DNA from: a virus
DNA: 28,132 bases
IMG/VR virus record: IMGVR_UViG_3300035162_000936
Span: 1 to 28,132 of that record
Direction: 5' to 3' (one strand)
In this document: piece after piece, positions 10,786 to 28,132 of the stretch
How the letters are laid out: each line of letters starts with the position of its first letter
How positions within the stretch are numbered: position 1 is the first letter of the stretch
The notes under the pieces: generated by a model
Told to the model about the DNA's origin: nothing
What the model saw: only the letters and a program-made list of their open reading frames with translations
The model's database searches: none
Position numbers and translations under genes: made by a program

Positions 10786-11193
10786 ATGGAATTTAATATA
10801 CGTAGGCTTAACGAAAATGATTGGGATACATTGGTGTCTTGGTGGGATGAATGGCCAGGTTGGCAAAACCCTCCTAAAGACTTTTTACCAGAAAATGGTA
10901 CAGGTGGTTTAATAGTAGAAAAAGATAATGTTCCTATTGTTGCAGGATTTATGTATTTCACAAATTCTGAAGGAGTTTTATTAGAGTGGATTGTGTCTAA
11001 CCCATCTTATAAAGATGATGACAGACAGGATGCTATTGAGTTTTTAATTCTTACTTGTGAAGAATACATAAAAGCTAACGGTAAAAAATATATATTTAGT
11101 ATTGGAAGAAACAAAAATTTAATTGAAACTCATAAAAAGTTAGGTTACCATGTGGATGAAAAAACATCTCATGAAATAATAAAAAAAATATAA
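10786..11193 (+). CDS. GNAT-type N-acetyltransferase-like protein (135 aa)
   Basis: Length and layout fit a compact GNAT fold. The N-terminal strand-helix is IRRLNENDWDTLVSWWDEWP. Beta strands GGLIVEKDNVPIVAGFMY and VLLEWIVSNPSY would build the central sheet, followed by a helix (QDAIEFLILTCEEYIKANG) and the C-terminal GNAT-like segment NLIETHKKLGYHVDEKT. The acetyl-CoA loop after the 'WIVSNP' strand is atypical: the expected R/Q-x-x-G-x-G/A glycines are replaced by Lys/Asp/Arg residues (KDDDRQD). Activity is therefore uncertain. The family's usual reaction is acetyl transfer from acetyl-CoA to an amine; the substrate here is unknown. It sits behind its own promoter and one base before the first ejection-protein gene, so a role in modifying a virion or host protein is possible (inference). 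Confidence 0.72.
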   Translation: MEFNIRRLNENDWDTLVSWWDEWPGWQNPPKDFLPENGTGGLIVEKDNVPIVAGFMYFTNSEGVLLEWIVSNPSYKDDDRQDAIEFLILTCEEYIKANGKKYIFSIGRNKNLIETHKKLGYHVDEKTSHEIIKKI

Positions 11194-11194
11194 T

Positions 11195-12082
11195 ATGGCA
11201 TTATTTACATCAATAGCAGCTGGTGTAGGATTAGCAATTTCAGCAACATCAGCTGGAATGAGTTTTTCTCAAGCAGCAAAGCAAAAAAAAATAGCATCAA
11301 AAGCTAATAAAGCAACTGATAGATTAATGAAGGAGGCTGAAAGAAAAGCTGAAGTTGAGTTTATGCAAAAACTTAATGTTCCTTTAGATGCTTATGATAG
11401 ACAAGAAGAGCGTAACATACAAAGTCAACAACAAAACATTGAGATGTTACAACAAGGTGACCCTCGTAATGTATTAGCTGGTTTAGGTTCTGTTGGAGCA
11501 GGAGCTACTAATTCAGCAGAACAAAACCGTATTGCTAAAGGAAAAGAATTATTTGCTTTACAACAAATGCAAGTTCAAGAGCAATCAGATATTAATCAAG
11601 ACGTTAAAGACCTGAAGGTTGGTGCAGCTGCCGATCAAAGCATGAGATCAAGAGATGCTCAAGAAGCGTCAGCAGCAGCTATGCAACAAGGTGTTGCATC
11701 AGTTGGTCAAGTTGTTCAAGGAGCTGCAAGTTTAGTGCCTTTATTTTCTAAAAGCGGAGCAGATAGAGCAGCCTCTAAAATGGCAGATGGTATATTTGGA
11801 GAAGACGCTACTGCGGTTGCAGCTGGAAAACAGTCTAATTTATCTACAACATCAGTAAATCAACCAGGTACAACAGCTGAAGGGCAAAAACAATATGCAG
11901 ATTACGTAGCAGCTGGAGATATGAAAAATGCAGCATTATTTGCTCCAACTTCAACAATACCTTTAGGTAGAAATCAAGTTATATCAAGATTGCAAGATGG
12001 AAGGTTTACGGATGATCAACTAAAAGCATATAGAAAGACTGGCGTATATGATCAATCTTTTTATGATATTTTAAATAGATAA
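11195..12082 (+). CDS. Candidate internal (ejected) virion protein, T7 gp14-like (295 aa)
   Basis: The N-terminus carries a hydrophobic Ala/Gly/Ser segment (about residues 3-26, SIAAGVGLAISATSAG) that could insert in a membrane. It is followed by long charged and Gln-rich helices (QSQQQNIEMLQQ, LQQMQVQEQSDINQD) with coiled-coil character. A second weakly hydrophobic stretch (about 170-185, VASVGQVVQGAASLVPLF) lies before a flexible C-terminal region. This layout is that of small internal core proteins of podoviruses such as T7 gp14, which are ejected and help form the channel through the cell envelope. Order also fits: small, medium and giant internal proteins follow one another here as in T7 gp14-15-16. 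No sequence identity with T7 is claimed. It lies one base after the GNAT stop. Confidence 0.62.
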   Translation: MALFTSIAAGVGLAISATSAGMSFSQAAKQKKIASKANKATDRLMKEAERKAEVEFMQKLNVPLDAYDRQEERNIQSQQQNIEMLQQGDPRNVLAGLGSVGAGATNSAEQNRIAKGKELFALQQMQVQEQSDINQDVKDLKVGAAADQSMRSRDAQEASAAAMQQGVASVGQVVQGAASLVPLFSKSGADRAASKMADGIFGEDATAVAAGKQSNLSTTSVNQPGTTAEGQKQYADYVAAGDMKNAALFAPTSTIPLGRNQVISRLQDGRFTDDQLKAYRKTGVYDQSFYDILNR

Positions 12083-12087
12083 ACAAC

Positions 12088-14322
12088 ATGGCAGAAGAAA
12101 CTTCAAGACCTTCAGGGGCTAATAAATATTCAGTTTACGCACAAAGAAGTGTAGATAGTACACAAGTTAATTGGAATGAAATATCAGGACAATTAGTTAA
12201 AGGCTTAGATACCATACGTGCTGAAAGGCAAGCTAAAAAAGATGAAATTGAAAAAGCTACTCAAGAGTCTATTGAACAACTTAGTCAAGTTCCTGAAACT
12301 GGTACACAAGAAGCAGCTTCTTTATTAATAAATGCAACATCCATGTCTGTTGAGGCTGTGAGGACTCAAAACAATTTAATGAAGCGTGGTTTAATTAGTC
12401 CTAAAGATAATATGCTTTTTATGCAACAGCAAAAAACTGGATATAAAAGTCTAAGTGCAGCTGTAAAGAATTGGGATGATTGGGCTGTTGAAGCTCGTAC
12501 AAGACTTGAAGACCCAAATATATCGTCAGGTAATTTAGAGACTTTTACTAATTTACAAACAGAAGCTTTAGGTAACTTAAGAAACAAAAAATTGTGGACT
12601 AACCCTACTAACGGTAAGATGCAGTTAGTGACAATGGGTAAAAACTCAAAAACTGGACTGTATGATGTAATGCCAGATTACGAAGCTCGAAAGCAAGACT
12701 ACCAAGATCCAAATCAGATAATGAATTTCATGAAGTATAAAAATGCTGGTGTTGATGTTAATGAGTTGGCAAAAAAACAAACAGCTAATATAGCTCAAAT
12801 TGTAACAGCTAATCGTGAAAGACTAACGGCTCTTGGAGGAGGAGGTGGTATTAATTCTTTTGATGATTTTAGACAATTAGGAGAATTTGGCAAGGATGAA
12901 AATGGAGGTGCAATTACTTACGATATGTGGAAGACTGATAACATTGATGCTATGGTTGGTGATATTACAGATACATCAAATCTTAATGCAGCAGAGATGT
13001 TAACAAATGCTGGGTATGCTTTTGCTCAGACAGAAAGCCAGTTTTTAGCAGAGAATAAAGGTAAAGATATATCAAAATGGATTAAAGTTGATATGTCTAC
13101 TGGGCAACCAGTTCCCGAAATGAAAGAAGCTCAAATGAAACAAGCGCGTAGACTTGCGGATGTTGCAATTGAAGCTCAAGTAAGTCACATTGTTAAATTG
13201 ACTGAAGGAAAAGGCGCTAAAGAAGCACAACAGCCAAATTCAGCTACTTTAGCACAACAAAAAGACGATAGTAAACTTATTGCGTTTATGGATGGTGTTA
13301 ACTCGTTAGTTTCAGATGACTCAAGTAAATTTGATGCAGAAGCTAATGATCGTATTGTTGCATTAAATAAAGACCAAACAGACCCAGCAAAAAGAATTGA
13401 TAGTATTGTAAGAGACGATGATGAAATCCTTATAACTTATCAAGATGGTACAGTAGAACCAATAAATAGATTAGATGATAGTGGTAATCCTAAACCTGCA
13501 AGAGTAATTTCTCAAGAGCTATGGAGATACGTAACAGATCAAGGAGATGATTCATTTAAATATGCAGCGGATCTTTATGCAAAAGAGCCAGGAGGTGGAT
13601 TTAGAAGTACTACAAGAACAGCGACAGCTGAAGAACAAACAAGCTTTTTAGCTAATAAAAGAGCTGTAGAAGCAGTAGGACCAGCTCCTACACTTCCAGA
13701 ATTGCCTGGAACTCCAACTCCAACTCAGATTAATGAAAATGCAGATAAATTTGAAAAAGAATCAAAAGAATATGCTTTAAAATTAAAAGCAGAAATTGAA
13801 GCACAAGGTAAAAAAGTAAGCGCTAATGATTTAAAAGACATAGAACGACAGATTCTTAATGGTGGGGATGCAAGTAAATATGCATCGTTAGCTCCTTTTA
13901 AAGAAATAAAATCATCTTCTGAAGTTGATATGGTAATGGGAGAAACTATGGTTTCACCAATTGGATTTATGAAAGAGAAATTAGATGATTATTTAGGTAA
14001 TTCAGATACTCAAAAACAAGTGCAAACTGCTTTTTCTGAAGTTTTCTCATATTTCTTACCTGATGAGTTTAAAAATGGTGCTAAATTAACATGGGACGAT
14101 AGTAAAAATCAAGTAATTATAACCTATAGAGATAAAAACAATAATGAAACTACATTACCAGCTATTCAAATGAGTGATAGTATGGGTAGCAGGACTTCAA
14201 CTTCAGCAGCAACTGAAATGATACGTAAAGCAGCAGTTGATGTTACGAATATAGAAAACAAAATTCGTCAATCAAGAAATAGAAAAGATACCAGAAAAAA
14301 AGCAAGAAAATTTAATGGATAA
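12088..14322 (+). CDS. Candidate internal/cargo virion protein (744 aa)
   Basis: This long, soluble, mostly helical protein has no signal peptide and no recognised catalytic motif. Features seen: an N-terminal charged helix (AERQAKKDEIEKATQESIEQ), a glycine run (residues ~250-255, GGGGG), a Pro/Thr-rich linker near residues 530-545 (PTLPELPGTPTPTQ) and a very basic C-terminal tail (RQSRNRKDTRKKARKF). Its place between the 295-residue membrane-active candidate and the giant 3045-residue protein, with an 8-base overlap with the latter (ATG at 14315 inside its end), suggests the middle member of an ejected protein set (T7 gp15-like position, crAss-like 'cargo'). This is inference from position and composition. 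I do not recognise the family with certainty. Confidence 0.68.
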   Translation: MAEETSRPSGANKYSVYAQRSVDSTQVNWNEISGQLVKGLDTIRAERQAKKDEIEKATQESIEQLSQVPETGTQEAASLLINATSMSVEAVRTQNNLMKRGLISPKDNMLFMQQQKTGYKSLSAAVKNWDDWAVEARTRLEDPNISSGNLETFTNLQTEALGNLRNKKLWTNPTNGKMQLVTMGKNSKTGLYDVMPDYEARKQDYQDPNQIMNFMKYKNAGVDVNELAKKQTANIAQIVTANRERLTALGGGGGINSFDDFRQLGEFGKDENGGAITYDMWKTDNIDAMVGDITDTSNLNAAEMLTNAGYAFAQTESQFLAENKGKDISKWIKVDMSTGQPVPEMKEAQMKQARRLADVAIEAQVSHIVKLTEGKGAKEAQQPNSATLAQQKDDSKLIAFMDGVNSLVSDDSSKFDAEANDRIVALNKDQTDPAKRIDSIVRDDDEILITYQDGTVEPINRLDDSGNPKPARVISQELWRYVTDQGDDSFKYAADLYAKEPGGGFRSTTRTATAEEQTSFLANKRAVEAVGPAPTLPELPGTPTPTQINENADKFEKESKEYALKLKAEIEAQGKKVSANDLKDIERQILNGGDASKYASLAPFKEIKSSSEVDMVMGETMVSPIGFMKEKLDDYLGNSDTQKQVQTAFSEVFSYFLPDEFKNGAKLTWDDSKNQVIITYRDKNNNETTLPAIQMSDSMGSRTSTSAATEMIRKAAVDVTNIENKIRQSRNRKDTRKKARKFNG

Positions 14323-17300
14323 ATTTACAGAGTTATATAGCTATTTAAAAGAAGAAGGGTTAACAGATTTATCTTCTGAAGAATTTAAAGATAAGTATGC
14401 GGCAGGAACTGCCAATAATACGGAATTATATTCTTATTTAAAAGATGAAGAGTTAACAGACTTAGATGCAGAAAAATTTAATGCTGTATATTTTCCTGCT
14501 TTAGAAAAAAAAAATCCAAACGAAAATTCTCAGCCAAATGTGGAGGAGGTTATTACGGATTCTACTACCGAAACTCCAGAGGTCGTAGATACTTCTGTGG
14601 ATTCTACCATAGTTGAAACACCTTTAAGTGACAATACTGTAGTAGATGTAGAGCAAGAAGACACCATGGTTACCGAGTACCCTGCATACGATGGTCGTGA
14701 GCAAGGTAAAGAATTTGATGACCCTATTACTTACGATTCAACAGACTCACAATTTGATCAATCTTTGGCTTTTGTAACTAAAGATTTAGTAGACAGGAAC
14801 GAAGAAGAGGTCGTTGATAGAATGAAGTATCATTTTGAAGATTACGGATTTGACTTTGAAGAAGGTGGTAGTGTGTTTGATGGAGTTGATGGTATGACTG
14901 TTACATCTAAAGATGACCCAACTAAAAGTATTAATGTAAATCTTGACCCATTTTTTAAAGATTTGTTTGGTGGTGAGTCAGGACCAGCACAAGAACTTAA
15001 AGAATTCTTAAAAGCCAACAGAAGAACTGACAGTAAAATGTCAGAACTAACAACTGGATACGATAGAAATAGAAAAAAATATTTTAGTCTTGAAGGAACA
15101 AAAGAGGATATAGCAGATGTTGAAAATACAGCTAAAGCCCTTAACACAAAATATAAAGTTTACTTAGACGCTCAGACTACACAAGAATCTGAAATGGATG
15201 TTTTGATGGGGCAGAGCCAAGAAATAAAAGCAACGCCTGAATGGCAAGTAAAATATCAAAATGCTTTAGCTAATGGAAAAAGATTACAGCAAACACGAAA
15301 CGTATTAGGAGATAATTTTAAGGAATACAAAAAACTTAAAACATTAGTTGACTCATCTGTCGGAAATTATATCGACATGAAAGAATCAAGTGATAGTACA
15401 TATCTTGGAGGGTTATATAATAATTTAGTTGGAACTGGTATTAGTGACAACCTTGCGGCTCTTTGGGGTGGTGTTGTTGATGGATATTACAAGGCAGTCC
15501 AGTCTGTAAACGAAGATTTTGGGATGACTCCTGAAGAAAAAAAAGATCGTTACATTGATATAGCAAGAGACCTTAAGTACCCAGTCCCTGAAAATATAGA
15601 GGATGAAGCTGTTTATAAAAAATGGTTAGATGGTTTGCAGGATCAAGGAATTGATGGTGAAGAAAAAGTAAAAGATGAAGATAGATTAAGAAATCTTTCT
15701 AAAGGTTTATTTTCTGAAGAAACTTTAGAACGACTTAAAGCTGATGGTTATGATTTAAGTAAACCAACACTAAACGGTAAGTTTTTTAATAAAAATCAAT
15801 CTGGATTAAATAAGTTTTTAAACGGTCAATACATTGACCTTCCTGATTATGCATATGATAAAACAAGAGGTGAAAGATTAAAAAGATTAGTCTTAGACCA
15901 AGAGGTAAAGGAAAATAAAAACCCACAAAAAGATTCTATTAAAAAATACTTTAATGAGATGCTGTCCCTGGATGATGTATCTGATGAGAAGTTTGCAAAA
16001 CAAAATAGAGATGGTATTATTGACATAGATACTCCGTTAGGAACAATTCCTGTAACTGAAGGGCTTACAGGTCTTTCTAAATCACTTCCGTCTGTATTGG
16101 TTTCATATTTATCAAGAGGTAAAATTGCTCCAGCTGTAGGCCTTGGAGCTGCTAAAAGAAATTTAATCGCAAGAGGTTTAGGGTTAACTACTAAAGGAGG
16201 GATAGCTCAAACTGTTTCGTTTTCATTATTACAGGCTGAAGCCATGAATGAAGAGATGAACAACGACCCTGACTTTAAGTATGTTACAGAGTCAGAAAGA
16301 AAAAATATTGTTATACCTACAGCTATTACAGTAGGTATATTAGAGCGTTTAGGTTTTAGACACTTAATAGGAAACAAGACTATAGTAACTGGTCTAATGA
16401 ATACGGTAACTAATATGTTACCTAAAGGAGCAACCGCAGTTATGTTTAGAAATACTATGAACAAGGTTGTGCAAAACAGAATTGCTAAAGGTCTTTTGTC
16501 TAATAAAGCAGTTAAAGCTACGATGACGTTTACTAATCGAGTTGCAAGAGCAACAGCGGCAGAAGCTGAAACAGGTGGACTACAGCAATTTGCTGAAATG
16601 GGTTATAAAGATGTGTGGAATAACATGAACAATAAGGAAATGTTTGACCAAACTAAATTTGATTTATGGTCTTTAGAGTTTTGGAAAACTATTGGGCATG
16701 CAGCGGCAGCAGAAGCTGTTGGTGGTTTTGTTATGGGTGTACCTGGAGCTGTAATTAACGCAGCCAAGAGAGGAAGCGAAGAGCTTATATCTGATGATAT
16801 GGTCGAGCTTTTTGATCAGATTGCTAATGATGGATTAACAAGAAAGGCTCATAAAACTCAATTAGACTTAGATGTAGCAGCAGGAACAAGAACTCAAAAA
16901 GATGTAGATCAAGAAATGTTAGACTTTGACACTTTAACAGGTGCATTAAAAGATCTTCCATCTGATATGGATTCAAATTCAAGAAAGAAAGGATTAATTT
17001 TAATTTTTGAGCAGCAAAAGTTAGAAGCTGAAATGGCTAAAATGAATAAGAATTTAAATTCTTATAAGACAAAAGAGGCAAGAGTAGAAGAAATAAAAGA
17101 ATCAATTGGTCAGTTAGGTACTGATCAAGCTCAAGCTAATACTAATTTAAAAAATGAAACTGAAGGAATTCAAGAATCTGTTTTAGTTACAGAAGAAGAT
17201 GCCACAAAATCTTTACAAGATAAGGGGGTGCAAAACCCTACAGTTGAACAAATAAAAACCGAACAAGATGCCTTACAAAAGCAAAGCACAGAGAGCCTGG

Positions 17301-20300
17301 ATGCACAAGAATCTACCACAAGTAGCGAAACGATGGGACAAAGCATATCCAACGAGCAGTCTACCAACGAGGGTGACACCAGCAATAAAACCAAAGAAAA
17401 AACGAAGTCCGAAAAGAAAGTAAGTGAAGATGATCAAAATGATATTGATGACTTTTTTGGAGATACAGTTTTAGATGAGGTAGAAACAACTTCAGATAAT
17501 TTATCTATAAACCGTAAACAAAAAGAAGGAAGCACTGAAATTGAAAACACATCTCTGGCAGCTGCTGTTGTTAACAAAGCTAAAAAAGCAGCACGTGCAA
17601 TTAAAAAACTCGCTCCTAATGTAAAAATTGTATTACATGATACTCAAGCTGAGTATGAGAAATATGGGACAAAAAATAGCAGAGGGTACTACAATCCTAA
17701 TAGTAAGGTTATACATATTAATTTAACTAAAGCTAAAGGTAATACAGTGGCACACGAAGTTTTTCATGCGGTGTTTTTAGAGAAAATATCAGGTGGAGAC
17801 ATTCAAGCTAAATTAGCTGCTAAAAAATTAATAACAGCTGTAAGAAAAACTTTACCAGCTGACTCTATGTTAGCTAAACGAATAGATAAGTTTGCTCAAA
17901 ATTATGATGAGAATTTTAAAGATGAAGAATATTTAGCTGAATTATTTTCGTTAATGTCTAATGAATATAAAACATTAAAGAAACCAGCTAAAAACAAAAT
18001 AATTGAATTTATAAGATCAATGGCTGCAAAGGTAGGTATTGAAATACCTGGTGGATTTGGTAAAACAGATGAGTCTGTTATTGATTTTCTTAATACATTT
18101 TCTCAAAAAGTTAGAACTGGTACTGAAATAACAGAAGGCGATGTAGATGTTTTAAATAAAATTGACAAAGAATTAGATGTAGAGCAAGAACAAGGTGATT
18201 CTGGGCAAGTTGGTACTTTTACTTTTGAAGGTAGAGAATCAAAAGCTCCAGACATAAACACTGACACCAGACCTTATGCAAAAAATATTATTCAGAAAGA
18301 CTTGACATCATATAAAGGACAAAACTTTGTGACTAACATGTATGACTTTACAAATGCTGGACCAACTGATATAGGTGCTGGTATTGTATTAGACTTATAT
18401 GGAGGTAAAAATTATGTTGCTGACATGATGGAAAAAATAGGAGCTAAATTAGGAGAAGTTTCTAATCTTGCTGCTTTTAATAGTAAAGAAAATGCTGAAG
18501 GATTTATTAAAAATTCTATTGATGGTGATGCGAATTTATTTGCTCCACACGTAGGAACTAAAGAAGGTTCGTGGCAGTTTCAACAAAATATTTTTGCTCA
18601 ATTAACTGAAAAATTATTAGATAACAATATTATAACCAATAAAGAATTAATTGAAAGTTTTAATAGTGGTTTAACCAGTAAGGATGGCAAATCTGCTTTA
18701 AAGACATTTACTGAAGCATATTCAAAAGCACAATCAAAAGAAGGAAGTAACCTTCCTAAATTAAAAAACACAAACAACTTAAATGATTTTATAGAAAATC
18801 CTAAAAAATTAGTTGAACTGTTAGATATTGATAATAATTATTCACCAGATTTAAGAAAAATATTAAACGATAAAATAGCTGCTAATGATAAAGTCAAGAA
18901 CGCTTTAGGTGTTAAAAATAAAATTCAATTTGCTGAAAAATTAGAAGACCCTATGAATGTAGGTAGTAAAGCTTTTGATTTAATTGGTGTTATAGAGTTT
19001 GATAATACTACTTTTGAAGCACCTTCAAGACCAAAAAAGGGAGATGCTGATTATCATCCTTCTTTTGCATGGACAGTAAGAGCAAAAATAAAAGCAATTG
19101 TTCAACCTACAACGTTTTATCAAAGTACTGAAGCTACTGATTCCTATACTAAGTTTAATAAAGATGAGGTAGTTGTTTCTACAAAAACTGATGTTAAAGA
19201 TTCAAAAGGAAATTCATTAGAAAAGTTATATAAAATAGCTCTTAAGGACACCAGAAAATACAGAACAAACAAACAAGGTAAAAAAGTAATAGCATCAGGT
19301 AAAGCTCCATTCTCTGGTACATTTGAAGATTTTCAGAAAAGTAAGTTTAAAAGTTCAAACGTAGCAAGTAGTGCAGGATCAGGCCCTAAAGTAGCTACTG
19401 TAAAATCAGAAATAAGAGAAGGTAGGGAGCAGTCTACTGAACAACAAGTAAAAGATCAAACTGGAATGCCAGCAAGTGGTTACTACAGCGCTCAAGCGAT
19501 GGTCTCCGATATACAAAGACAGTTTAATAGAATTGGTCCAGGATACACAGCTAAAAGAGCCAAGTTAGGAGCTTATGGTGGCGGTGGCGGTGTTTATGTA
19601 AATGGTCCTAAAGGGAGAGTTAAAAACCCTACTCGAACAGGCCGTCAACAAGTAATGGATAATGAAAATGATTTATTAAGAGTCATTGTAGCTGGTAGAC
19701 AAGAAGGTGGCTTTACAGATGCTGCAATATTAGATTATTTAAAACGAAGAAAAAGAAAAGTTGATGGTAAAACCGTTGCTGCTTATAATATTAAAGAAAT
19801 AAGAGGTGCGTTTAAAGTTTTAGAAAGTGAAGCTTTTGACTCTTACATGTTTAGAGAGTATCCTAAAAGTTTTAACGACATAAAAGGTGGTTTCTTAGCT
19901 GGTCTTAAATTAATGAAACAGGTTGACAATTACTATAAAAAATTAGTTCAAGACAATAATTTAATAAAAGACAGGATAAAGAAAAATAAAAAAACAAAAC
20001 AAATTCCTTTATCAGACGAGCAACTTAATTTAAAAGTTTTAGATTTTTTCATGGACCAGGCTGGTTATAAAAGCGCAGGTGTTAAAGGTAAAAGACAAAC
20101 ATCTCAGCAACTCGCAATGGAACGTGATATGTTAGAAATACTTCTTCCAGACCCTTTAAAAGCTAATCCACAGCGTATTGCTGCTATAAATAAAAGAATT
20201 AAAAACATCAAATTTGACGAGAAAAATTTAAAAGGAGTTCAGAGAGCATTACGAAATTATATTCGTATGGTTCTTCCAAGAGACTTGTACACTAAAAAAG

Positions 20301-23300
20301 AAATCACTGATTTAATAGATAAAATAAACAGAGTTGATGCTACTAATTTTGACTCAATTAAAGATGAGGTTTTTAAAATAGTAACAATAAAAACTAATAC
20401 TCGTCTTCAGAATATTCTTTTTGAAATACTTAAAAAAGATTACACTGTAGTTCAAAGTGGTAGGTTTAAAGGTGTTAAAATAGATAACAAAACACGTAAA
20501 AAACTAAACCGTATAAATAAATTAATAGTTAATCCAGAGGCAACTGAAAAAGAAATAACCAAAGCAAATAGTAAATTATTAGATAAATTTAATAAAATTG
20601 CAAAAGAAGAGGTTGAAGGTGAAAAAGGTGGAGATGTTGTTACAATTAATAAGAAAGATTTTTCTGAAAATGACTTAGAAGCAATGGCTGAAATTACTTT
20701 AGCTATGCAGATAAATACTTCATTTACTCAAGAAATGAATGACCCTGGAAAAACTACTCAATTAAACTCAGTAGTAAGTAGTCTTAATCAAATTGAAACT
20801 ACTGGTAAAGCAAATCTTGAATACCAGTTATTACAGGATGCAATTAAATACAGAGAAAATGACAGAGCTGTATATAAAGACATGACAGGTGTTGATTTAG
20901 ATGCTAAACAATCTCTCATTGATCAAGGAATTCCTGAAAATGAAATAACGGAATACATGATTAATAAAGAGTTTCGTGAAATGAGTAAAGATATTGCTCT
21001 TGATGCTAAAGAAGGTGGAGGTTTAAAAGTAAAGGGTGTTATAAAAAGATTTAGAGGTTCTATAAACAGTGTACTGTTATCTATTGAGCAGGGTGTTTTT
21101 GGTACGGCAGAAGATATGACTGGATTAATTGATAGAATCTCAAATCAGCCAGGAGAAATATTTGAAGGAGCCACTCAAGATATAACTCAGAAAGAAATAC
21201 GTAAAGCTTCAAGAATGTTTAAAGGAAGAATGCTTAACCAACAATTAATTTTTTCTGAAAAAATGACTGAGTTGTTTGGTAAAAGATGGACAGCAAAAAA
21301 TAGAAAAAATGCACAAGAAAGTGAAACTATTGTTCGTAGTGTAGTAAAAGCAGAAATGTTACAAAACCAGTTAAATGAGATTAAAAAAACTATTACTAAA
21401 AAAAATAAATCAGAAGTAGCTGCTAAAGTAAAAGAGATAGAAAAGAAAATAGGAGAGAACACTATAAGTATTAGCCAGAACCAATTACTTTATTATTATT
21501 CTCAAATGCAAGATCCTTCGTTAAATCAAAGTATGATTAATACTTTTGATGCTACACGATTAGGAAATGAGACTTTTGAGAATGAATTTAATAGTCGTAT
21601 AAAACAAGAGATTGCTGATAAATTAGATGACAAATTAATTCAATTGTCAGAATGGATGATAGGAGAATATTATCCAGAATCATACGATCATTATAATAAT
21701 ACTTACAAAGAAGTGTATAGAACAGATATGCCATGGAATCAATTCTATGCTGGTAGAGTTTATAGACAAAACGAAAATGAAGCTGAAGGATTAGATTTAT
21801 TAGCAGATAGTCAGTCATGGATAACAAATGTTGGTGCTGCCAGTACTAAAGCAAGGAAAGCAAACACTAATCCAATAAATAAATCAGATGGTATAGATGC
21901 ATTGTTGAATTATACCAAAGACATGGAGTATTTTGCTGCGTATGCAGTTCCAATTAGAAATATTAATAAAATATTTCAGTCACCATTAATTAAAGAAACT
22001 ATTAAGGATAAGTATGGACCACAAATATGGAAGTATATTAATGATTCTATTACAAAAATTGCCAATAAAGGAATACAGGCTCAAAACGAAACTAAAATAA
22101 TAAATACGTTTAATAATACTTTTTTATTATCTCGATTAGGTTTAAATCCAACACTTATTTTAAAGCAGATGACTTCATTTATTACCTATGGTAATGACAT
22201 TGGTTATTTAAATTGGGTTAAAAACGCAGCTATGAGTACTGTTAAAGCACGTACTTTAGTTAAAGAAGTTTTAGATAATTCAGTAGTCCTGCAAGATAGA
22301 TACGGCAAAAGCATTACAAGAGCTGTAGAAAATTATACCGATGATAAGTTTGAGAGAATGAATGGTGGGTTGCTTGAAAAATTTGGGTTAACTAACACTA
22401 AGCAAGATCAAATTAGTAAAATACTAATGTGGACTACAATGGCTGGTGATAAAGGAGCTATTTTAGTTGGGGGTGTTCCTAATTATTTATATTATAAAAA
22501 TAAATTTAAGAAGAAAAACCCTAACGCTACAGAACAAGAAGCAATCGATCATGCTATTATAAAATTTGAAGCTGACACGTTAAGAACTCAGCAGTCATAT
22601 GATTTACAGGACAAAGATTTCTTACAAACTAAAGGAGCTTTTGTTAGAGCCTTTAATATGTTCCTAACAACTCCAAAACAATATTTCCGTAGAGAGATTA
22701 TTGCAGCGAGAAACATGTATAGAATTATTAAGAGTGGTGGTAAATCAGGTAAAGGAGTTGTAAAAGATAATGGAGAATTAGATTACTGGAGAAGTTTAGG
22801 TAAGTCTGCAAGAAGTTTAGCAGTGTACCACGTGGTTATGCCAGTTATTTTTCAGTGGGTATCTCAAGGTCTTCCAGGACTTTTAAGAGGCTCTGATGAT
22901 GAAGACAAAGCAGAACTTGCAAGAGCTGCAATTATGGGTAACTTAAATGCTTTATTTATTATTGGTAAAGTTATAGAATCAGGTTTTGAAGCTGCGGCTG
23001 GTAAACCATGGGTAGGCACACCATCTACAATACCAGTCTTAGGGCAAACTGCTTTATTAGCTAAATTATATGCTGATATCGGTAAAATTAAAGATCCAAT
23101 TAAAAGAGAAGAAAAGGTTAATAAATTTATGGCCGAAGCAATTTCATTAACTGGTATACCAGCTGGACAGCTTCGTAAAATGATGAAGAACTTTAGCACA
23201 ATTGGTGACTCAAAAAATTTAGGGGAATTTATTTTAAAAGTATTTAATTTCTCTGAATACGCTCAAGGTAAAAAAGGAGGAAAAAAATCCAGAGGTTTGT

Positions 23301-23452
23301 TTGATTTAACACAGCGAGAATTAAAAAAATATAAACCAGAATTGTATAAAAAACAACAAGAGCTTAAAGAAAGAATGCCTAAACAAAGAGACCTTCAAAA
23401 AGAAGTCAAAGCAAAAATTAGAGAAAAATTACTCGATCAAATATATAAGTAA
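14315..23452 (+). CDS. Giant polyvalent virion protein with zincin metallopeptidase domain (3045 aa)
   Basis: This is the largest gene of the window (one third of it). Layout: two copies of a 31-residue-period helical repeat (residues 5-28 and 36-59); an acidic linker (60-150); helical regions; hydrophobic Ala/Gly-rich segments at ~580-820 that could be membrane-active; a Ser/Thr/Lys/Glu linker (~940-1050); and a zincin domain with AHEVFHAVF (HExxH at 1147-1151) and a likely third ligand in DEEYLAELF (E1205 or E1209). Long helical regions follow, then a conserved C-terminal block (~2600-2820) with LGLNPTLILKQMTSF and RAFNMFLTTPKQYFRREI, typical of large polyvalent-protein domains, and a basic tail. 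The family is known to enter the host with phage DNA; proteolysis of a host or virion target is inferred. The start overlaps the preceding gene by 8 bases. No RNA polymerase DFDGD motif was found; IDGD at ~1402 is in an unrelated context. Confidence 0.8.
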   Translation: MDKFTELYSYLKEEGLTDLSSEEFKDKYAAGTANNTELYSYLKDEELTDLDAEKFNAVYFPALEKKNPNENSQPNVEEVITDSTTETPEVVDTSVDSTIVETPLSDNTVVDVEQEDTMVTEYPAYDGREQGKEFDDPITYDSTDSQFDQSLAFVTKDLVDRNEEEVVDRMKYHFEDYGFDFEEGGSVFDGVDGMTVTSKDDPTKSINVNLDPFFKDLFGGESGPAQELKEFLKANRRTDSKMSELTTGYDRNRKKYFSLEGTKEDIADVENTAKALNTKYKVYLDAQTTQESEMDVLMGQSQEIKATPEWQVKYQNALANGKRLQQTRNVLGDNFKEYKKLKTLVDSSVGNYIDMKESSDSTYLGGLYNNLVGTGISDNLAALWGGVVDGYYKAVQSVNEDFGMTPEEKKDRYIDIARDLKYPVPENIEDEAVYKKWLDGLQDQGIDGEEKVKDEDRLRNLSKGLFSEETLERLKADGYDLSKPTLNGKFFNKNQSGLNKFLNGQYIDLPDYAYDKTRGERLKRLVLDQEVKENKNPQKDSIKKYFNEMLSLDDVSDEKFAKQNRDGIIDIDTPLGTIPVTEGLTGLSKSLPSVLVSYLSRGKIAPAVGLGAAKRNLIARGLGLTTKGGIAQTVSFSLLQAEAMNEEMNNDPDFKYVTESERKNIVIPTAITVGILERLGFRHLIGNKTIVTGLMNTVTNMLPKGATAVMFRNTMNKVVQNRIAKGLLSNKAVKATMTFTNRVARATAAEAETGGLQQFAEMGYKDVWNNMNNKEMFDQTKFDLWSLEFWKTIGHAAAAEAVGGFVMGVPGAVINAAKRGSEELISDDMVELFDQIANDGLTRKAHKTQLDLDVAAGTRTQKDVDQEMLDFDTLTGALKDLPSDMDSNSRKKGLILIFEQQKLEAEMAKMNKNLNSYKTKEARVEEIKESIGQLGTDQAQANTNLKNETEGIQESVLVTEEDATKSLQDKGVQNPTVEQIKTEQDALQKQSTESLDAQESTTSSETMGQSISNEQSTNEGDTSNKTKEKTKSEKKVSEDDQNDIDDFFGDTVLDEVETTSDNLSINRKQKEGSTEIENTSLAAAVVNKAKKAARAIKKLAPNVKIVLHDTQAEYEKYGTKNSRGYYNPNSKVIHINLTKAKGNTVAHEVFHAVFLEKISGGDIQAKLAAKKLITAVRKTLPADSMLAKRIDKFAQNYDENFKDEEYLAELFSLMSNEYKTLKKPAKNKIIEFIRSMAAKVGIEIPGGFGKTDESVIDFLNTFSQKVRTGTEITEGDVDVLNKIDKELDVEQEQGDSGQVGTFTFEGRESKAPDINTDTRPYAKNIIQKDLTSYKGQNFVTNMYDFTNAGPTDIGAGIVLDLYGGKNYVADMMEKIGAKLGEVSNLAAFNSKENAEGFIKNSIDGDANLFAPHVGTKEGSWQFQQNIFAQLTEKLLDNNIITNKELIESFNSGLTSKDGKSALKTFTEAYSKAQSKEGSNLPKLKNTNNLNDFIENPKKLVELLDIDNNYSPDLRKILNDKIAANDKVKNALGVKNKIQFAEKLEDPMNVGSKAFDLIGVIEFDNTTFEAPSRPKKGDADYHPSFAWTVRAKIKAIVQPTTFYQSTEATDSYTKFNKDEVVVSTKTDVKDSKGNSLEKLYKIALKDTRKYRTNKQGKKVIASGKAPFSGTFEDFQKSKFKSSNVASSAGSGPKVATVKSEIREGREQSTEQQVKDQTGMPASGYYSAQAMVSDIQRQFNRIGPGYTAKRAKLGAYGGGGGVYVNGPKGRVKNPTRTGRQQVMDNENDLLRVIVAGRQEGGFTDAAILDYLKRRKRKVDGKTVAAYNIKEIRGAFKVLESEAFDSYMFREYPKSFNDIKGGFLAGLKLMKQVDNYYKKLVQDNNLIKDRIKKNKKTKQIPLSDEQLNLKVLDFFMDQAGYKSAGVKGKRQTSQQLAMERDMLEILLPDPLKANPQRIAAINKRIKNIKFDEKNLKGVQRALRNYIRMVLPRDLYTKKEITDLIDKINRVDATNFDSIKDEVFKIVTIKTNTRLQNILFEILKKDYTVVQSGRFKGVKIDNKTRKKLNRINKLIVNPEATEKEITKANSKLLDKFNKIAKEEVEGEKGGDVVTINKKDFSENDLEAMAEITLAMQINTSFTQEMNDPGKTTQLNSVVSSLNQIETTGKANLEYQLLQDAIKYRENDRAVYKDMTGVDLDAKQSLIDQGIPENEITEYMINKEFREMSKDIALDAKEGGGLKVKGVIKRFRGSINSVLLSIEQGVFGTAEDMTGLIDRISNQPGEIFEGATQDITQKEIRKASRMFKGRMLNQQLIFSEKMTELFGKRWTAKNRKNAQESETIVRSVVKAEMLQNQLNEIKKTITKKNKSEVAAKVKEIEKKIGENTISISQNQLLYYYSQMQDPSLNQSMINTFDATRLGNETFENEFNSRIKQEIADKLDDKLIQLSEWMIGEYYPESYDHYNNTYKEVYRTDMPWNQFYAGRVYRQNENEAEGLDLLADSQSWITNVGAASTKARKANTNPINKSDGIDALLNYTKDMEYFAAYAVPIRNINKIFQSPLIKETIKDKYGPQIWKYINDSITKIANKGIQAQNETKIINTFNNTFLLSRLGLNPTLILKQMTSFITYGNDIGYLNWVKNAAMSTVKARTLVKEVLDNSVVLQDRYGKSITRAVENYTDDKFERMNGGLLEKFGLTNTKQDQISKILMWTTMAGDKGAILVGGVPNYLYYKNKFKKKNPNATEQEAIDHAIIKFEADTLRTQQSYDLQDKDFLQTKGAFVRAFNMFLTTPKQYFRREIIAARNMYRIIKSGGKSGKGVVKDNGELDYWRSLGKSARSLAVYHVVMPVIFQWVSQGLPGLLRGSDDEDKAELARAAIMGNLNALFIIGKVIESGFEAAAGKPWVGTPSTIPVLGQTALLAKLYADIGKIKDPIKREEKVNKFMAEAISLTGIPAGQLRKMMKNFSTIGDSKNLGEFILKVFNFSEYAQGKKGGKKSRGLFDLTQRELKKYKPELYKKQQELKERMPKQRDLQKEVKAKIREKLLDQIYK
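14327..14491 (+). repeat. Two tandem 24-residue coding repeats, 31-residue period
   Basis: Residues 5-28 and 36-59 of the giant protein share TELYSYLK(E/D)E.LTDL..E.F...Y with identical spacing. Each unit predicts two short helices. Their place at the extreme N-terminus suggests a small docking or oligomerisation module. Confidence 0.8.
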
Positions 23453-24301: not shown

Positions 24302-24531
24302 TAGTCTAAAGAATTAAGTATTTGTTTACCGATAGCTGCGTCAATTTTGCCAATAGCTTTGTACAGTTTTTTTGATTTTGATTTTGTAATCTGTCTTTCT
24401 GTTTGTGTAGATTCTTTACCCAAGTTTGTGTAAAGAGTGCAGTCTATAAATAATAATGTGTCAATTTTTTTATTATCTGACCAAGTTTTAAAGTTTAAAA
24501 TCTTGTCTATGTCTTCTACGTTATAATCCAT
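24301..24531 (-). CDS. Unknown protein in replication operon (76 aa)
   Basis: The ATG at 24531 lies 11 bases inside the end of the DnaA-domain gene, and its stop overlaps the next start by one base. The N-terminal half is acidic (MDYNVEDIDKILNFKTW) with a short hydrophobic strand (DTLLFIDCTLYTNLG). The C-terminal half is Lys/Ser-rich and basic (ERQITKSKSKKLYKAIGKID). No motif is recognised. Coupling with the DnaA-domain gene suggests linked expression and perhaps a shared replication role (inference). Confidence 0.7.
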   Translation of the reverse strand: MDYNVEDIDKILNFKTWSDNKKIDTLLFIDCTLYTNLGKESTQTERQITKSKSKKLYKAIGKIDAAIGKQILNSLD

Positions 24532-25045
24532 TTAGAAATGTATTTACTTTTCTTTCAAAAGCTGAAAACCTGTCACCTGTTCTATGTTCAATATCCGCAA
24601 CCAACTTATAGAACCTTTCGTACTTACCAGTGTAGTGTTTTATTTGCGTTTTTAAGGTGCTTACTTCCAAATTTAAGTTTTTATTTTGGTTTACGAGGAA
24701 CTTTATCCTATTTTTTAAATCAGAGTCCAGTATCGGAACATAGTTTTCAACATTTTCAAGCCAATTATTGATGATATTATTGTATGTATATTGTAGGTCA
24801 TGATCATATTTCATGAGGTACGGAAGCTGGTTTAGACTGTGTAACACTGTAGCATGGTTTTTGTTGAAAACTTTTGCAATATCAGTTAGGCTCATTCGTA
24901 AATGTTTTCGTAAAATATCGTATACAACTGCACGACCAAATACATACTCTCGTTTTCTTGAATCAGCTCGTGGGTCAATACCTGTCTCTTCAATTACATT
25001 AAATATTATAGCTTCTATTGTTTGTTCTTTTGGTGATAAATTCAT
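24521..25045 (-). CDS. DnaA domain IV-like DNA-binding protein without ATPase (174 aa)
   Basis: Residues ~28-95 match the DnaA C-terminal DNA-binding domain. SLTDIAKVFNKNHATVLHSL (52-71) corresponds to the bacterial signature 'SL.EIG..F..RDHTTVLHA', including the His-x-Thr-Val-Leu-His recognition helix, and it is preceded by the basic helix RKREYVFGRAVVYDILRKHL. The AAA+ domain of cellular DnaA is absent. Instead a C-terminal helical region (about 108-165) with Leu/Lys/Asn heptads looks like a coiled coil, probably for dimerisation. The family binds DnaA boxes in double-stranded DNA; a phage version could mark the phage origin, compete with host DnaA or regulate transcription. It sits between an unknown gene and small coupled genes in the replication operon (ATGA junction at 25042-25045). 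Confidence is high for the domain and low for the exact role. Confidence 0.82.
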   Translation of the reverse strand: MNLSPKEQTIEAIIFNVIEETGIDPRADSRKREYVFGRAVVYDILRKHLRMSLTDIAKVFNKNHATVLHSLNQLPYLMKYDHDLQYTYNNIINNWLENVENYVPILDSDLKNRIKFLVNQNKNLNLEVSTLKTQIKHYTGKYERFYKLVADIEHRTGDRFSAFERKVNTFLNGL

Positions 25046-25359
25046 TTTATGTAAGATTTTAAATTTATTAGGTCTAAATATTCATCGACTTCTATAAGGT
25101 GAAAGTCTGTTAGTTTTAAAAATTTTCTTGGCAATCTAAGTATTTCTATAGCAAAATATACTGGCTTTCCTCTATGAATTACAAACCCTCCGACCACGTA
25201 TGTTGTTAATTTATTTATTGGATAATCTTTTACGTTGGAATCAATGTAATCTGATATTAATATTTTAAGCGTTATATCTTCTAATTCAGAAATAGAGTCT
25301 ATAAAATCATCCTCCACTTCATACCCTCTATCCTTTATATACTTCGGTTTTAAACCCAT
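25042..25359 (-). CDS. Unknown protein in replication operon (105 aa)
   Basis: The start ATG at 25359 overlaps the nuclease gene by 32 bases, the longest overlap of the operon; no other in-frame Met lies near, so this start is favoured. The product has an N-terminal basic stretch (MGLKPKYIKDRGYEVEDDF), an acidic helix (SISELEDITLKILISDYIDS) and a strand pair (TTYVVGGFVIHRGKPVYFAI). It ends in a helical tail rich in Leu and Asp. No family is recognised. An ATGA overlap couples it to the DnaA-domain gene. Confidence 0.72.
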   Translation of the reverse strand: MGLKPKYIKDRGYEVEDDFIDSISELEDITLKILISDYIDSNVKDYPINKLTTYVVGGFVIHRGKPVYFAIEILRLPRKFLKLTDFHLIEVDEYLDLINLKSYIK

Positions 25360-25567
25360 ACTTCTCTAATTCTTTTAATCTGTATTTTTGTAATTCAGAT
25401 AACACTCCTTTTGGTTTTTTTATTTCTGAAAATAAAACATCACATCCACGAGGCAAAGCAAGTAAGTCTGGTATACCATTCTTATTTGTAAGCTTTAGTT
25501 TTATAACATAGTAACCCTCTGCTTCAAGTTCTTTTATCCTTTTGTTTTGTATTTGTTGCTCTGTCAT
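25328..25567 (-). CDS. VRR-NUC-type PD-(D/E)xK endonuclease (79 aa)
   Basis: The catalytic core of the PD-(D/E)xK fold is visible: NGIPDLLAL (D34) and then FSEIKKPKG (E48-x-K50), followed by a conserved Gln (Q60) in the next helix. The N-terminal helix (RIKELEAEGYYVIKLKL) and the strand before the glycine also match. Length is at the short end of VRR-NUC/Holliday-junction-resolvase-like phage nucleases. The expected activity is Mg-dependent cleavage of branched or flapped DNA during replication or recombination. It is coupled by ATGA to the SNF2-like helicase upstream, a common pairing in phage replication modules, which supports a joint role in processing forks or recombination intermediates. 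Confidence 0.86.
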   Translation of the reverse strand: MTEQQIQNKRIKELEAEGYYVIKLKLTNKNGIPDLLALPRGCDVLFSEIKKPKGVLSELQKYRLKELEKYGFKTEVYKG

Positions 25568-26793
25568 AAAGTTAATAAATCTCTTTTAAAATGTCTTAAG
25601 GTATAATCTTTTTTCTTTGTAACTGCCTTGTATATGTCAGCTTCAATTCCTCCACGAGAAAATATCCAGTACACATCACTCTCTAACCTTTCCTTGGTTG
25701 TCATACGATCTCTGGACTGCCAGTAGCTGGTGGCTGAAAAATCTATATTGTAATAAACAAGTGCGTCAGCTTTACGTAAACTAATTCCTTCTCTACCACT
25801 GACAATTTGCAAAGCTATGGTTTTATTAGTTTCATTAAACGTACTTAAATCTGTACATAAATCATCTCCATAAACTTCTTTTAATGCGTTAAGCTCTTCC
25901 TTGAACTTATAAAATATTCCAATTTTTGCATCAGCAAAATTATCATGAATGAATTGAGCTTTACTTAAATCTAAAATCATAGAGTTTCCAGACTCAAATT
26001 TTACAGTCCCTGAATACATTTGATGGAGTTTCATCATTAGCTTTACTGGTGTATCTGCCAATATTACATCATCATTACCTTCAATAACTAAATGTTTTTT
26101 TAACTTATTTGCTAATTGATATGTCATTGGACTCATTTCTACCTCCAACACATGCTCCCTTGTTTTTACTTTAAACCCAGCTTCTTTCTGAGTGTAAGAG
26201 ATTGTGTGTGGTTTCATTTCATCAATAATAATATCCAAACCATGACTGTAATCATTAATTAGAAAACTGTTTATTTTTCTCTGCTTGATGTTTACGTATT
26301 TTTTAGCAAACTTATAGAAAGTTTTATACTCACTAAAAGGATGGTTAAGCATTACAGAAACCTGATGGTACATTTGACTGTAAGATTCTGGTGTAGGAGT
26401 ACCAGATAAAAATATAACAAATGGATTGTTTTCTAAGATCAAAGAACGTACTTGAGTGGATCGTTTGTTTCTTTTCGGAAAAGCACCCATTCCATGAGCT
26501 TCATCACATATTACCATGTCCCAACCAGTTTGGTCTATTTTATGTAAAGACTCGTAATTTATTACAGTAATGCTGTAGGATGGATTAAGGAGCTTGTAAT
26601 CATCCTCAATACTGCTTATAGCTTTTTTCTTGGTAATAAATAAAAGGTTAGATACTGGCAAAAGCGCACTTACACCCAAGCTCGTGAGAGTTTTACCAGT
26701 CCTTACCTCCATTGCAAGATAAACAAATTTATCTTTTTGTAACAGAGGTTTGGCCTTATTCATTACTTCTAATTGATAGTTTCTGAATTCCAT
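25564..26793 (-). CDS. SNF2-like SF2 DNA helicase/translocase (409 aa)
   Basis: I choose the ATG at 26793 (MEFRNYQ...), one base after the upstream stop, rather than an in-frame TTG at 26805. The motifs are in order: RNYQ near the N-terminus; motif I AMEVRTGKT (K34); motif II DEAH (97-100) in VICDEAHGMG; motif III SGTP (130-133); and, in the second RecA lobe, a motif V region IVSGREGISLRKAD and motif VI QSRDRM (359-363). This is the pattern of phage SNF2-like helicases, and it is complete though compact. It should use ATP to move on or remodel DNA at forks. Downstream it is coupled by ATGA to the VRR-NUC nuclease, and upstream it almost touches the primase-helicase gene. Confidence 0.9.
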   Translation of the reverse strand: MEFRNYQLEVMNKAKPLLQKDKFVYLAMEVRTGKTLTSLGVSALLPVSNLLFITKKKAISSIEDDYKLLNPSYSITVINYESLHKIDQTGWDMVICDEAHGMGAFPKRNKRSTQVRSLILENNPFVIFLSGTPTPESYSQMYHQVSVMLNHPFSEYKTFYKFAKKYVNIKQRKINSFLINDYSHGLDIIIDEMKPHTISYTQKEAGFKVKTREHVLEVEMSPMTYQLANKLKKHLVIEGNDDVILADTPVKLMMKLHQMYSGTVKFESGNSMILDLSKAQFIHDNFADAKIGIFYKFKEELNALKEVYGDDLCTDLSTFNETNKTIALQIVSGREGISLRKADALVYYNIDFSATSYWQSRDRMTTKERLESDVYWIFSRGGIEADIYKAVTKKKDYTLRHFKRDLLTL

Positions 26794-26794
26794 A

Positions 26795-28132
26795 TTAAAA
26801 ATCAAAGTTACCGTTAGTTTCTAACTCATGCTTTGTTCTAAAACGCAACCATCTACCAACAGAATCTCTATCAGCTTCAGGCTTACAGTCATACTTAAAC
26901 ATTGAGTATGCTTCAAGCCACTTATTAAATTTAGTTCGTGAAACTGTCATTTTTGATTTAGGTGCAAAATCAGGATTGTCATCAACAAAATCCAAGTATA
27001 AATCATTTTTATAAACCTTGTAGCCTTTAGCTAACTTATCATTAATGTTATTAGTTCCAATCAATCCACACCACTCTAAAAACTCGTGGCATGTAGCAGC
27101 AGATAGCTGTCTGATTTTTAAGTTTACAAACTTAGACTTAACAAGTCCATGCATCATATATTCTTGTAAGCAACCAATCATGTAGTTGTCAAACTCACAC
27201 CACTCATCATCATCCCACTCTCCAAACATCAGCTTTCCAAACTCCTTTAATGGTGTTACATCTTTAGTGTAGTACTGAGCTAATTCCAGCTCCCACTTTC
27301 TTCTTGCAAAAGAAGAACCTTGCCCTTTGATAGCATAGTTCGTAGTTATAGCAATTTTTGGAGATTTGCTGAATGGAATTTTAATAGCATCTTTATTCTT
27401 TTTTTCTAAAACTAATCCCTCTGTTATAACACTAAAAAGTCTTTCAAAATCAAAATGTTTTTTAACATCATCAAAACACAAAACCTGCGTGTCTACGCTT
27501 ACGGTTTGATAAGCAAAACTTTTCTCAAAATTAAACGACTTACCATCTATAAATACTAACTTCTTCATGTGGCTCAAAGCGTTCATAAACAATCCCTTCC
27601 CTGTCCCCCCTTCAGGGTTGTCTGATATAACCTCGTCATTTAAAATAACGGCTGGACAGTAGGAAAGATTCTTCCACTGGTGTAACAAGTATCCTATTGT
27701 AGACTTCATAGATTTAATTCTGCTATCGTCCTGACCACATATGTTAGTTATAAACTGTTGGTAGTCACATCCATCTCCTTCACACAACTGGAAGTTACGG
27801 TCAATTACATGATCGTTCCAAACGTACCCACCTAAGTCCAAATAATCAATCTTTGTTATTGAATCATGCTTAACTTTTACAGCTCCGTTTTTGTAGTAAA
27901 GGTATGCTGTGTCTTTGTTGTCTTCAATAAAGTAAACATCTATGGAATTTAATAAAGTCAGGAACTCCTCTCTAAAATAACGAGTATGCTCTGCAAAATA
28001 ATTATATACTGACAGGTCATCAACCTCCAGCAAATAATTTAAAATAAAATCTTTAATCTCTTTCTCTGAAGTATGGTCTATAAGATTATTTGTAACTTTA
28101 ACAAACACGTAGTTTTTACTACCTTCAGGATT
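26795..28132 (-). CDS. D5/SF3-type primase-helicase, C-terminal part (5' end outside window)
   Basis: The frame stays open to the right edge: codons NPEGSKNY lie upstream of the GTG at 28108, so the N-terminus (probably a primase domain) is missing. Visible motifs are Walker A in NPEGGTGKGLF, Walker B in QVLCFDDV about 40 residues later, the SF3 sensor-like strand KIAITTNYAI, and an arginine pair in SFARRKWELEL that can act as arginine finger. The C-terminal ~100 residues look like a winged-helix region of D5-type helicases (MTVSRTKFNKWLEAYSM). The role is unwinding, and perhaps priming, at the phage replication fork. The stop TAA is one base before the ATG of the SNF2-like helicase. Confidence is high for an SF3/AAA+-type helicase and moderate for the primase fusion. 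Confidence 0.82.
   Translation of the reverse strand, partial: NPEGSKNYVFVKVTNNLIDHTSEKEIKDFILNYLLEVDDLSVYNYFAEHTRYFREEFLTLLNSIDVYFIEDNKDTAYLYYKNGAVKVKHDSITKIDYLDLGGYVWNDHVIDRNFQLCEGDGCDYQQFITNICGQDDSRIKSMKSTIGYLLHQWKNLSYCPAVILNDEVISDNPEGGTGKGLFMNALSHMKKLVFIDGKSFNFEKSFAYQTVSVDTQVLCFDDVKKHFDFERLFSVITEGLVLEKKNKDAIKIPFSKSPKIAITTNYAIKGQGSSFARRKWELELAQYYTKDVTPLKEFGKLMFGEWDDDEWCEFDNYMIGCLQEYMMHGLVKSKFVNLKIRQLSAATCHEFLEWCGLIGTNNINDKLAKGYKVYKNDLYLDFVDDNPDFAPKSKMTVSRTKFNKWLEAYSMFKYDCKPEADRDSVGRWLRFRTKHELETNGNFDF

Follow-up and report, generated by a model that had tools for sequence, protein, structure and literature searches.

The ejection genes of phage T7 run in the order gp14, gp15, gp16. In the model proposed for the cargo proteins of PhicrAss001, cargo exits the head partly unfolded, ahead of the DNA (PMC10172136). 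The virion RNA polymerase of N4 is an ejected protein of ~3500 residues, in which an HExxH domain (C1, 2124-2375) precedes a large helical C-terminal domain (PMC12633501, PMC5512222). For the polyvalent proteins of phages and conjugative elements, packaging together with self-processing has been proposed, and their zincin core has been described as a helix, three strands, a helix bearing HExxH and a helix bearing a glutamate (PMC5512222). Here we analyse a 28,132-bp virus record (the window) with a 3045-aa gene product that combines features of these systems, and compare it with relatives from viral contigs.

Gene context of the giant protein

The + strand of the window carries a series of virion genes, with Crassvirales-like signs. 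A 271-aa protein matches crAss_MUZ_C, the C-terminal domain of the crAss muzzle, above the Pfam cut-off, and two further products match virion PHROGs, namely the terminal part of a major capsid-type protein (PHROG 13704) and, at 1602 aa, a structural protein (PHROG 14478). Downstream of the muzzle gene are encoded proteins of 135, 295, 744 and 3045 aa. Nearly all listed non-redundant relatives have the corresponding trio of a ~200 to 350 aa protein with a hydrophobic N-terminus, a ~410 to 780 aa protein and then the giant, the comparison with the T7 cassette being one of gene order, size and hydropathy only. The giant is annotated as a "structural protein" in related phages, and because of these annotations and the conserved trio, the preliminary description of the chain as ejected-type is supported; it is probably carried in the particle and injected into the host. 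Pfam and PHROGs returned nothing useful for the chain of the window giant itself, and a 416-position profile of its C-part had no PDB profile match.

Residues 600-950 of the giant are common to most divergent relatives. Candidate membrane segments had been suggested at about residues 580-820. A hydropathy scan (19-residue window, threshold 1.3) confirmed one Gly/Ala-rich stretch in this range (796-814, mean 1.58) and detected another at 2869-2887 (1.34), which bears out the suggestion only in part; the membrane argument is weak. The first 62 residues (window 14315-14500) comprise two copies of an ELYSYLKxEELTDLxxEEFxxxY repeat, and similar short words (LYSYL, LYDALS, DFLAT) stand at the N-terminus of most relatives, which is possibly a packaging or docking signal. 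The 135-aa protein (window 10786-11193), encoded after the muzzle gene and ahead of the ejection trio, is GNAT-like by eye, for which Pfam gave no confirmation; proteins of like size and start recur at the same place in many relatives. Genes of replication type, encoding a DnaA C-terminal helix-turn-helix, VRR-NUC, a SNF2/ResIII helicase and a DUF5906 protein, occupy the - strand at 24521-28132.

Table 1. Coordinates of the ejection genes and of the features of the giant protein, in window positions
Feature	Window position	Strand	Basis or remark
295-aa protein, hydrophobic N-terminus	11195..12082	+	T7 gp14-like by position
744-aa protein	12088..14322	+	T7 gp15-like by position
Giant, putative polyvalent/ejection protein, 3045 aa	14315..23452	+	ORF; gene order same in relatives
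N-part, residues 1-1060, with weakly hydrophobic stretch 796-814	14315..17494	+	Coverage by relatives; hydropathy
Putative additional junction motif RKQK (R1067), N-terminal to the zincin	17513..17524	+	Low confidence; consistent in the close clade only
Zincin-like domain, ~residues 1079-1290	17549..18184	+	Alignment A2, AlphaFold model, structural neighbours
K1120, zincin position co-varying by charge with motif position 2	17672..17674	+	
HEVFH, residues 1147-1151 (two zinc ligands and catalytic Glu, predicted)	17753..17767	+	
E1204/E1205	17924..17929	+	E1205 likely third zinc ligand, constant wherever readable
Junction motif 1, RESK at R1307	18233..18244	+	
Cargo module, residues 1309-1606, predicted EVE/YTH-like fold with helical insert	18239..19132	+	
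Junction motif 2, REQS at R1704	19424..19435	+	
73-residue segment between the last two motifs	19436..19642	+	Recurrent in relatives
Junction motif 3, RQQV at R1777	19643..19654	+	
Conserved C-part, residues 1781-3045	19655..23449	+	

The zincin-like domain

A domain of ~200 residues in the giant contains HEVFH and, from residue 1203, DEEYLAE with the glutamate cluster E1204/E1205/E1209. Both elements are located where the first reading of the sequence had put them, and the low-complexity flanks noted around them are present. Any HExxH appeared in only 0.25% of 2000 whole-chain shuffles. Scans of viral contigs gave 31 loci, then 79, with further loci added by later scans, and the domain was found in more than 150 marine phage contigs. 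HExxH, whose conservation in homologues had been proposed as a check, is kept in all 90 loci compared (the first loci checked). Forty of these read HE[IAMT]FH and were therefore not retrieved through an HEVFH word, and such conservation in relatives retrieved through other words rules out HEVFH as a chance motif. E1205 is constant wherever readable in the 90 loci, while E1204 is altered in one locus and E1209 in two (variants of the cluster include NDERIAEL, DEEYLAQL and NEERLAQL). As the sole residue of the acidic cluster that never changes, E1205 probably provides the third ligand.

The AlphaFold model of the domain (pLDDT 72) has a helix, strands at 49-53, 69-72 and 77-81, the HExxH helix at 89-103 and the Glu-bearing helix at 148-165, the same order as in the zincin core of polyvalent proteins. 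Foldseek found no significant match in the PDB; with VIA-align, many zincins were recovered at Z ~4-5 (anthrax lethal factor, PPEP, collagenases, aminopeptidases), and structural neighbours are mostly zincins. The best sequence-profile match was to IrrE, over a strand and HExxH (E 0.13, weak; another at 0.61). This match to IrrE/ImmA-type (M78) peptidases falls below family thresholds and indicates a similar working principle only, membership not being claimed; the similarity to lethal factor, PPEP and IrrE serves as a fold hint only. In BFVD, the model had strong matches to viral giants and to a protein of the Flavobacterium elemo phages, which was also found by tblastn without any HEVFH pattern. 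We consider the assignment sound because invariant ligands combine with fold and profile matches that are individually weak, and these data, together with the predicted secondary-structure order, support the earlier reading of the domain as a zincin-like metallopeptidase (gluzincin).

Cargo slot and junction motif

Alignment of the window giant to 75 divergent relatives showed that residues 1100-1250 are common to practically all of them and residues 650-1050 and 1800-2950 to about two thirds, as against only ~17 of the 75 for residues 1350-1700. The relatives hold other material in this slot, ~30 to 1620 residues in length, in which Pfam recognises ART-PolyVal (L002, L023), GNAT (L017), a methyltransferase (L047), an N6_N4 DNA methylase (L083) and LPD23 (L024, L132). 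Directly after the zincin there is a slot that accommodates one exchangeable, effector-like module or several. Chains that combine a number of unrelated domains of effector type, as expected of polyvalent proteins, are found among the relatives; the window giant itself has the zincin and one module with an EVE/YTH-like model. Twenty-six copies of this module are listed among the relatives, and in L130 and L131 it lies far from the zincin. Its model is confident (pLDDT 84), and the first 23 rows of the VIA-align output are all of YTH, EVE or ASCH type (Z 5.7-3.9), the next and unrelated row having a Z of 3.1; neither Foldseek against the PDB nor a sequence profile gave a significant match. A function as a reader of modified bases is plausible for the predicted fold, not established.

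Some modules of the relatives deserve mention. The LPD23-bearing cargo module of the L024 giant includes a second HExxH (HELQH, residues 1798-1802), and a module between RQQK sites in the L023 giant (residues 1366-1552) resembles small protein kinases by eye, with no match in Pfam. The first slot modules of L013, L036, L039 and L088 give no BLAST alignment; they and the window module have a faint pattern in common (xFxxxDxxxxG ... GGxxY ... HPxF) and may constitute one very diverse superfamily.

A short word, R-[E/Q/K]-Q-[K/hydrophobic], is found at each slot junction. In the window the junctions read GRESK, GREQS and GRQQV, in L023 GRQQK, PRQQK, IRQQK and RRQQK, and L073 has seven RQQ sites. 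Counted in 22 non-redundant proteins against block shuffles, the slot contains 44 instances of R[EQ]Q where 2.35 are expected (shuffle maximum 5), the motif, like the charge statistic given below, having been found after looking at the data. Outside the slot there is no excess (N-part 4 against 6.7 expected, zincin 1 against 0.8, C-part 8 against 10.3). In 28 more distant relatives that were not used for motif discovery, RKQK (11 against 0.9) and PRKQ (8 against 0.1) are among the leading words; these word counts were unsupervised and replaced a held-out segment test, for which C-part landmarks were available in 4 proteins only. The motif also lies close to module boundaries, in that the window-type cargo module starts 3 to 9 residues past it in 22 of the 26 listed copies and typically ends 23 to 30 residues ahead of the next one. 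The last two sites are 70 to 80 residues apart in 17 of 42 proteins. A strict-form site is absent from 5 of 35 zincin proteins, and the first site of the window, RESK, is itself outside the R[EQK]Q form. Further sites at R1067 and R128 are inconsistently kept and are candidates only. No earlier description of the junction motif was found in the literature searched, which did not cover most subscription papers.

Scanning with HEVFHAVF could have biased the collection towards zincin-bearing relatives, and a second scan was anchored on the C-part as a check (alignment A5 was too diverse as a query, and a scan with a single C-part sequence gave five loci, all close relatives of known ones). Of the proteins with a complete 5' end in the C-part scan, 59/69 match the zincin profile. 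Five profile hits extend over a fragment only and lack HExxH in the aligned part, with HExxH just outside in at least four, and the remaining proteins have another HExxH type or none. The non-redundant exceptions of the latter kind (L191, L193, L194 and L204) show neither slot content nor a surplus of the motif, which fits motif and cargo belonging together, the numbers being small. At the corresponding point of their chains, L191, L193, L194 and L034 (Tenacibaculum phage Gundel_1, gp074, residue 1337) carry a different type, HEFGH, HEYGH or HEMGH. A close relative of the giant (47% in the zincin) is encoded on L090 (JAAGZR010000163.1), a contig assigned to an Aliivibrio MAG; a phage contig was probably drawn into that bin, and its host is uncertain.

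The motif is held at the protein level, since its codons vary (Arg as AGA, CGT, AGG and CGC; Gln as CAA 50 times and CAG 49 times) and the flanking DNA is unrelated, identity between sites dropping to ~0.3 immediately outside the four motif codons. The same two properties largely rule out a DNA recombination site. Within a protein the sites are uniform, position 2 (E/Q/K) being identical in 82 of 106 within-protein site pairs (permutation 37.6 +/- 4.9). All sites of a protein change together, as expected for sites read by one enzyme.

Comparison of every zincin column with motif class pointed to K1120, just ahead of the strand RGYY, a column with a basic residue in 12 of 18 E-class proteins and an acidic one in 16 of 19 proteins of the K class, and zero same-charge cases in this first set. 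The family-wise p is 0.001 against a tree-based null (class simulated on a tree built without the K1120 column, maximum taken over all columns), a value that is somewhat flattering because the statistic was picked after a first look. Later loci again include no same-charge case, with 2 basic and 4 neutral among six E-class proteins and 20 acidic and 4 neutral or gapped in the K class; the imbalance of this set and its clumping on the tree make it supporting evidence for the co-variation, short of proof. The window has K1120 with motifs RES, REQ and RQQ, mainly of E-class, as expected. This pattern suggests that the zincin recognises the junction motif, partly by charge.

Proposed self-processing and known systems

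Whether the protease would act on the host, on the virion or in delivery had been left open, and our data point to its own chain, as the motif-flanked cargo co-varies with the zincin. The first interpretation is partly supported: it had recognised the zincin and the ejected type of the protein, leaned on membrane segments that are weakly supported, and overlooked both the slot with its cargo and the motif at the junctions. The explanation that we favour, and to which we would give roughly two chances in three, is that the giant of a crAss-like/flavophage-type podovirus is a virion-packaged, ejected polyvalent protein whose self-processing zincin cuts the R-[E/Q/K]-Q junctions and frees the cargo. 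We infer that the motif is cut and that the zincin is the cutter, and what follows on bond position, timing and cargo function is likewise conditional. The chain would pass through the tail, after which the zincin would refold and read the junction motif partly by charge, K1120 being set against the Glu of E-class motifs. It would then cut its own chain at the junctions, most plausibly after ejection, so that cargo is set free in the host cell and the N- and C-parts remain at the ejection channel. For the window, the pieces would be of ~146 kDa (N-part and zincin), 44 kDa (the EVE/YTH-like cargo), 8 kDa and 145 kDa (C-part). Points against this explanation are the five zincin proteins without a strict-form site, the deviating RESK of the window, the choice of motif and charge statistic after inspection of the data, the small number of E-class proteins among the later loci and the non-significant Foldseek matches of the zincin. 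On a bolder version, for and against which we see equal chances, self-cutting after entry at a lineage-specific code word (R-E/Q/K-Q) releases changeable effectors, among them ADP-ribosyltransferases, possible modified-base readers, methylases and acetyltransferases, and co-evolution of charge would make the codes of different lineages mutually incompatible.

An alternative, which we regard as unlikely, is cleavage of the junctions as the virion matures, with either the zincin or a distinct prohead protease as the enzyme, so that the pieces fit into the head and can pass the tail and the cargo is packaged free. Cutting of this kind is familiar from the prohead proteases of T4 and phiKZ, which cleave internal head proteins at short motifs. 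P1 DdrB is likewise cut before packaging (PMC5512222). A separate protease is disfavoured because R[EQ]Q[KR] turns up in 239 other ORFs from these loci about as often as expected (2 observed, 1.6 expected) and because the motif co-varies with the giant's own zincin, although the zincin itself might still cut inside the head; the same lack of enrichment in other genes led us to reject the motif as the site of a general phage protease. Rather less probable is a zincin that serves as an effector cutting host proteins, with the motif as a linker, a docking word (for a chaperone or the portal) or a mark of module boundaries. Injected zincin effectors of other systems have been discussed (PMC5512222), and in L025 and L084 the zincin is kept although the slot is almost empty. 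A passive linker, however, leaves both the uniform position 2 and the opposite-charge co-variation unexplained. We see very little chance that the domain is a zincin-like fold that is no longer a protease and has a structural role only; the weak similarity to solved zincins would allow this, but the two His, the catalytic Glu and E1205 stay unchanged down to ~35% identity, which would be surprising in a dead domain. Least probable of all is that the motif simply reflects module exchange, being a short stretch of DNA kept as a place of recombination, since modules do move between proteins and positions but the synonymous codon changes and unrelated flanks described above speak against it, and twelve variable bases would be too few for homologous recombination.

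Among known systems, the T7 gp14/gp15/gp16 cassette and the PhicrAss001 cargo genes (PMC10172136) resemble the window in gene arrangement, with a row of three genes that follows the tail genes, each larger than the one before and the first encoding a hydrophobic N-terminus, and the muzzle domain is shared with crAss phages. This likeness is one of order, size and hydropathy, and the giant differs from those proteins in being much longer and in having a zincin and cargo. The N4 virion RNA polymerase is also an ejected protein with an HExxH domain ahead of a large C-terminal domain, but it carries an RNA polymerase, of which none was recognised in the window giant, and it is packaged unprocessed despite its zincin-like domain, which counts against the self-processing explanation (PMC5512222). 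In the elemo phages, KNV10_gp21 (3694 aa) has the same zincin (37-38% identity over 177 residues) with HEIFH, NEEKLSEL and, after the zincin, RQQK at residue 2079; its N- and C-parts are different, so that only the zincin aligns.

The closest parallel is with the polyvalent proteins (Iyer et al., 2017; PMC5512222), which are also giant multidomain chains with zincin, ART-PolyVal, GNAT, methylase and LPD23 domains. If self-processing holds true, giant phage proteins could be divided into effectors by sequence alone, and early effectors of a DNA phage would be delivered as a polyprotein. The self-processing idea of 2017 becomes directly testable, also in the cultivated elemo phages of Flavobacterium. 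We found no recognition sequence named in that work, whereas here a slot-restricted junction motif co-evolves with the zincin; judged from sequence, what is new would be a candidate recognition code, its confinement to cargo junctions and its co-evolution with the protease.
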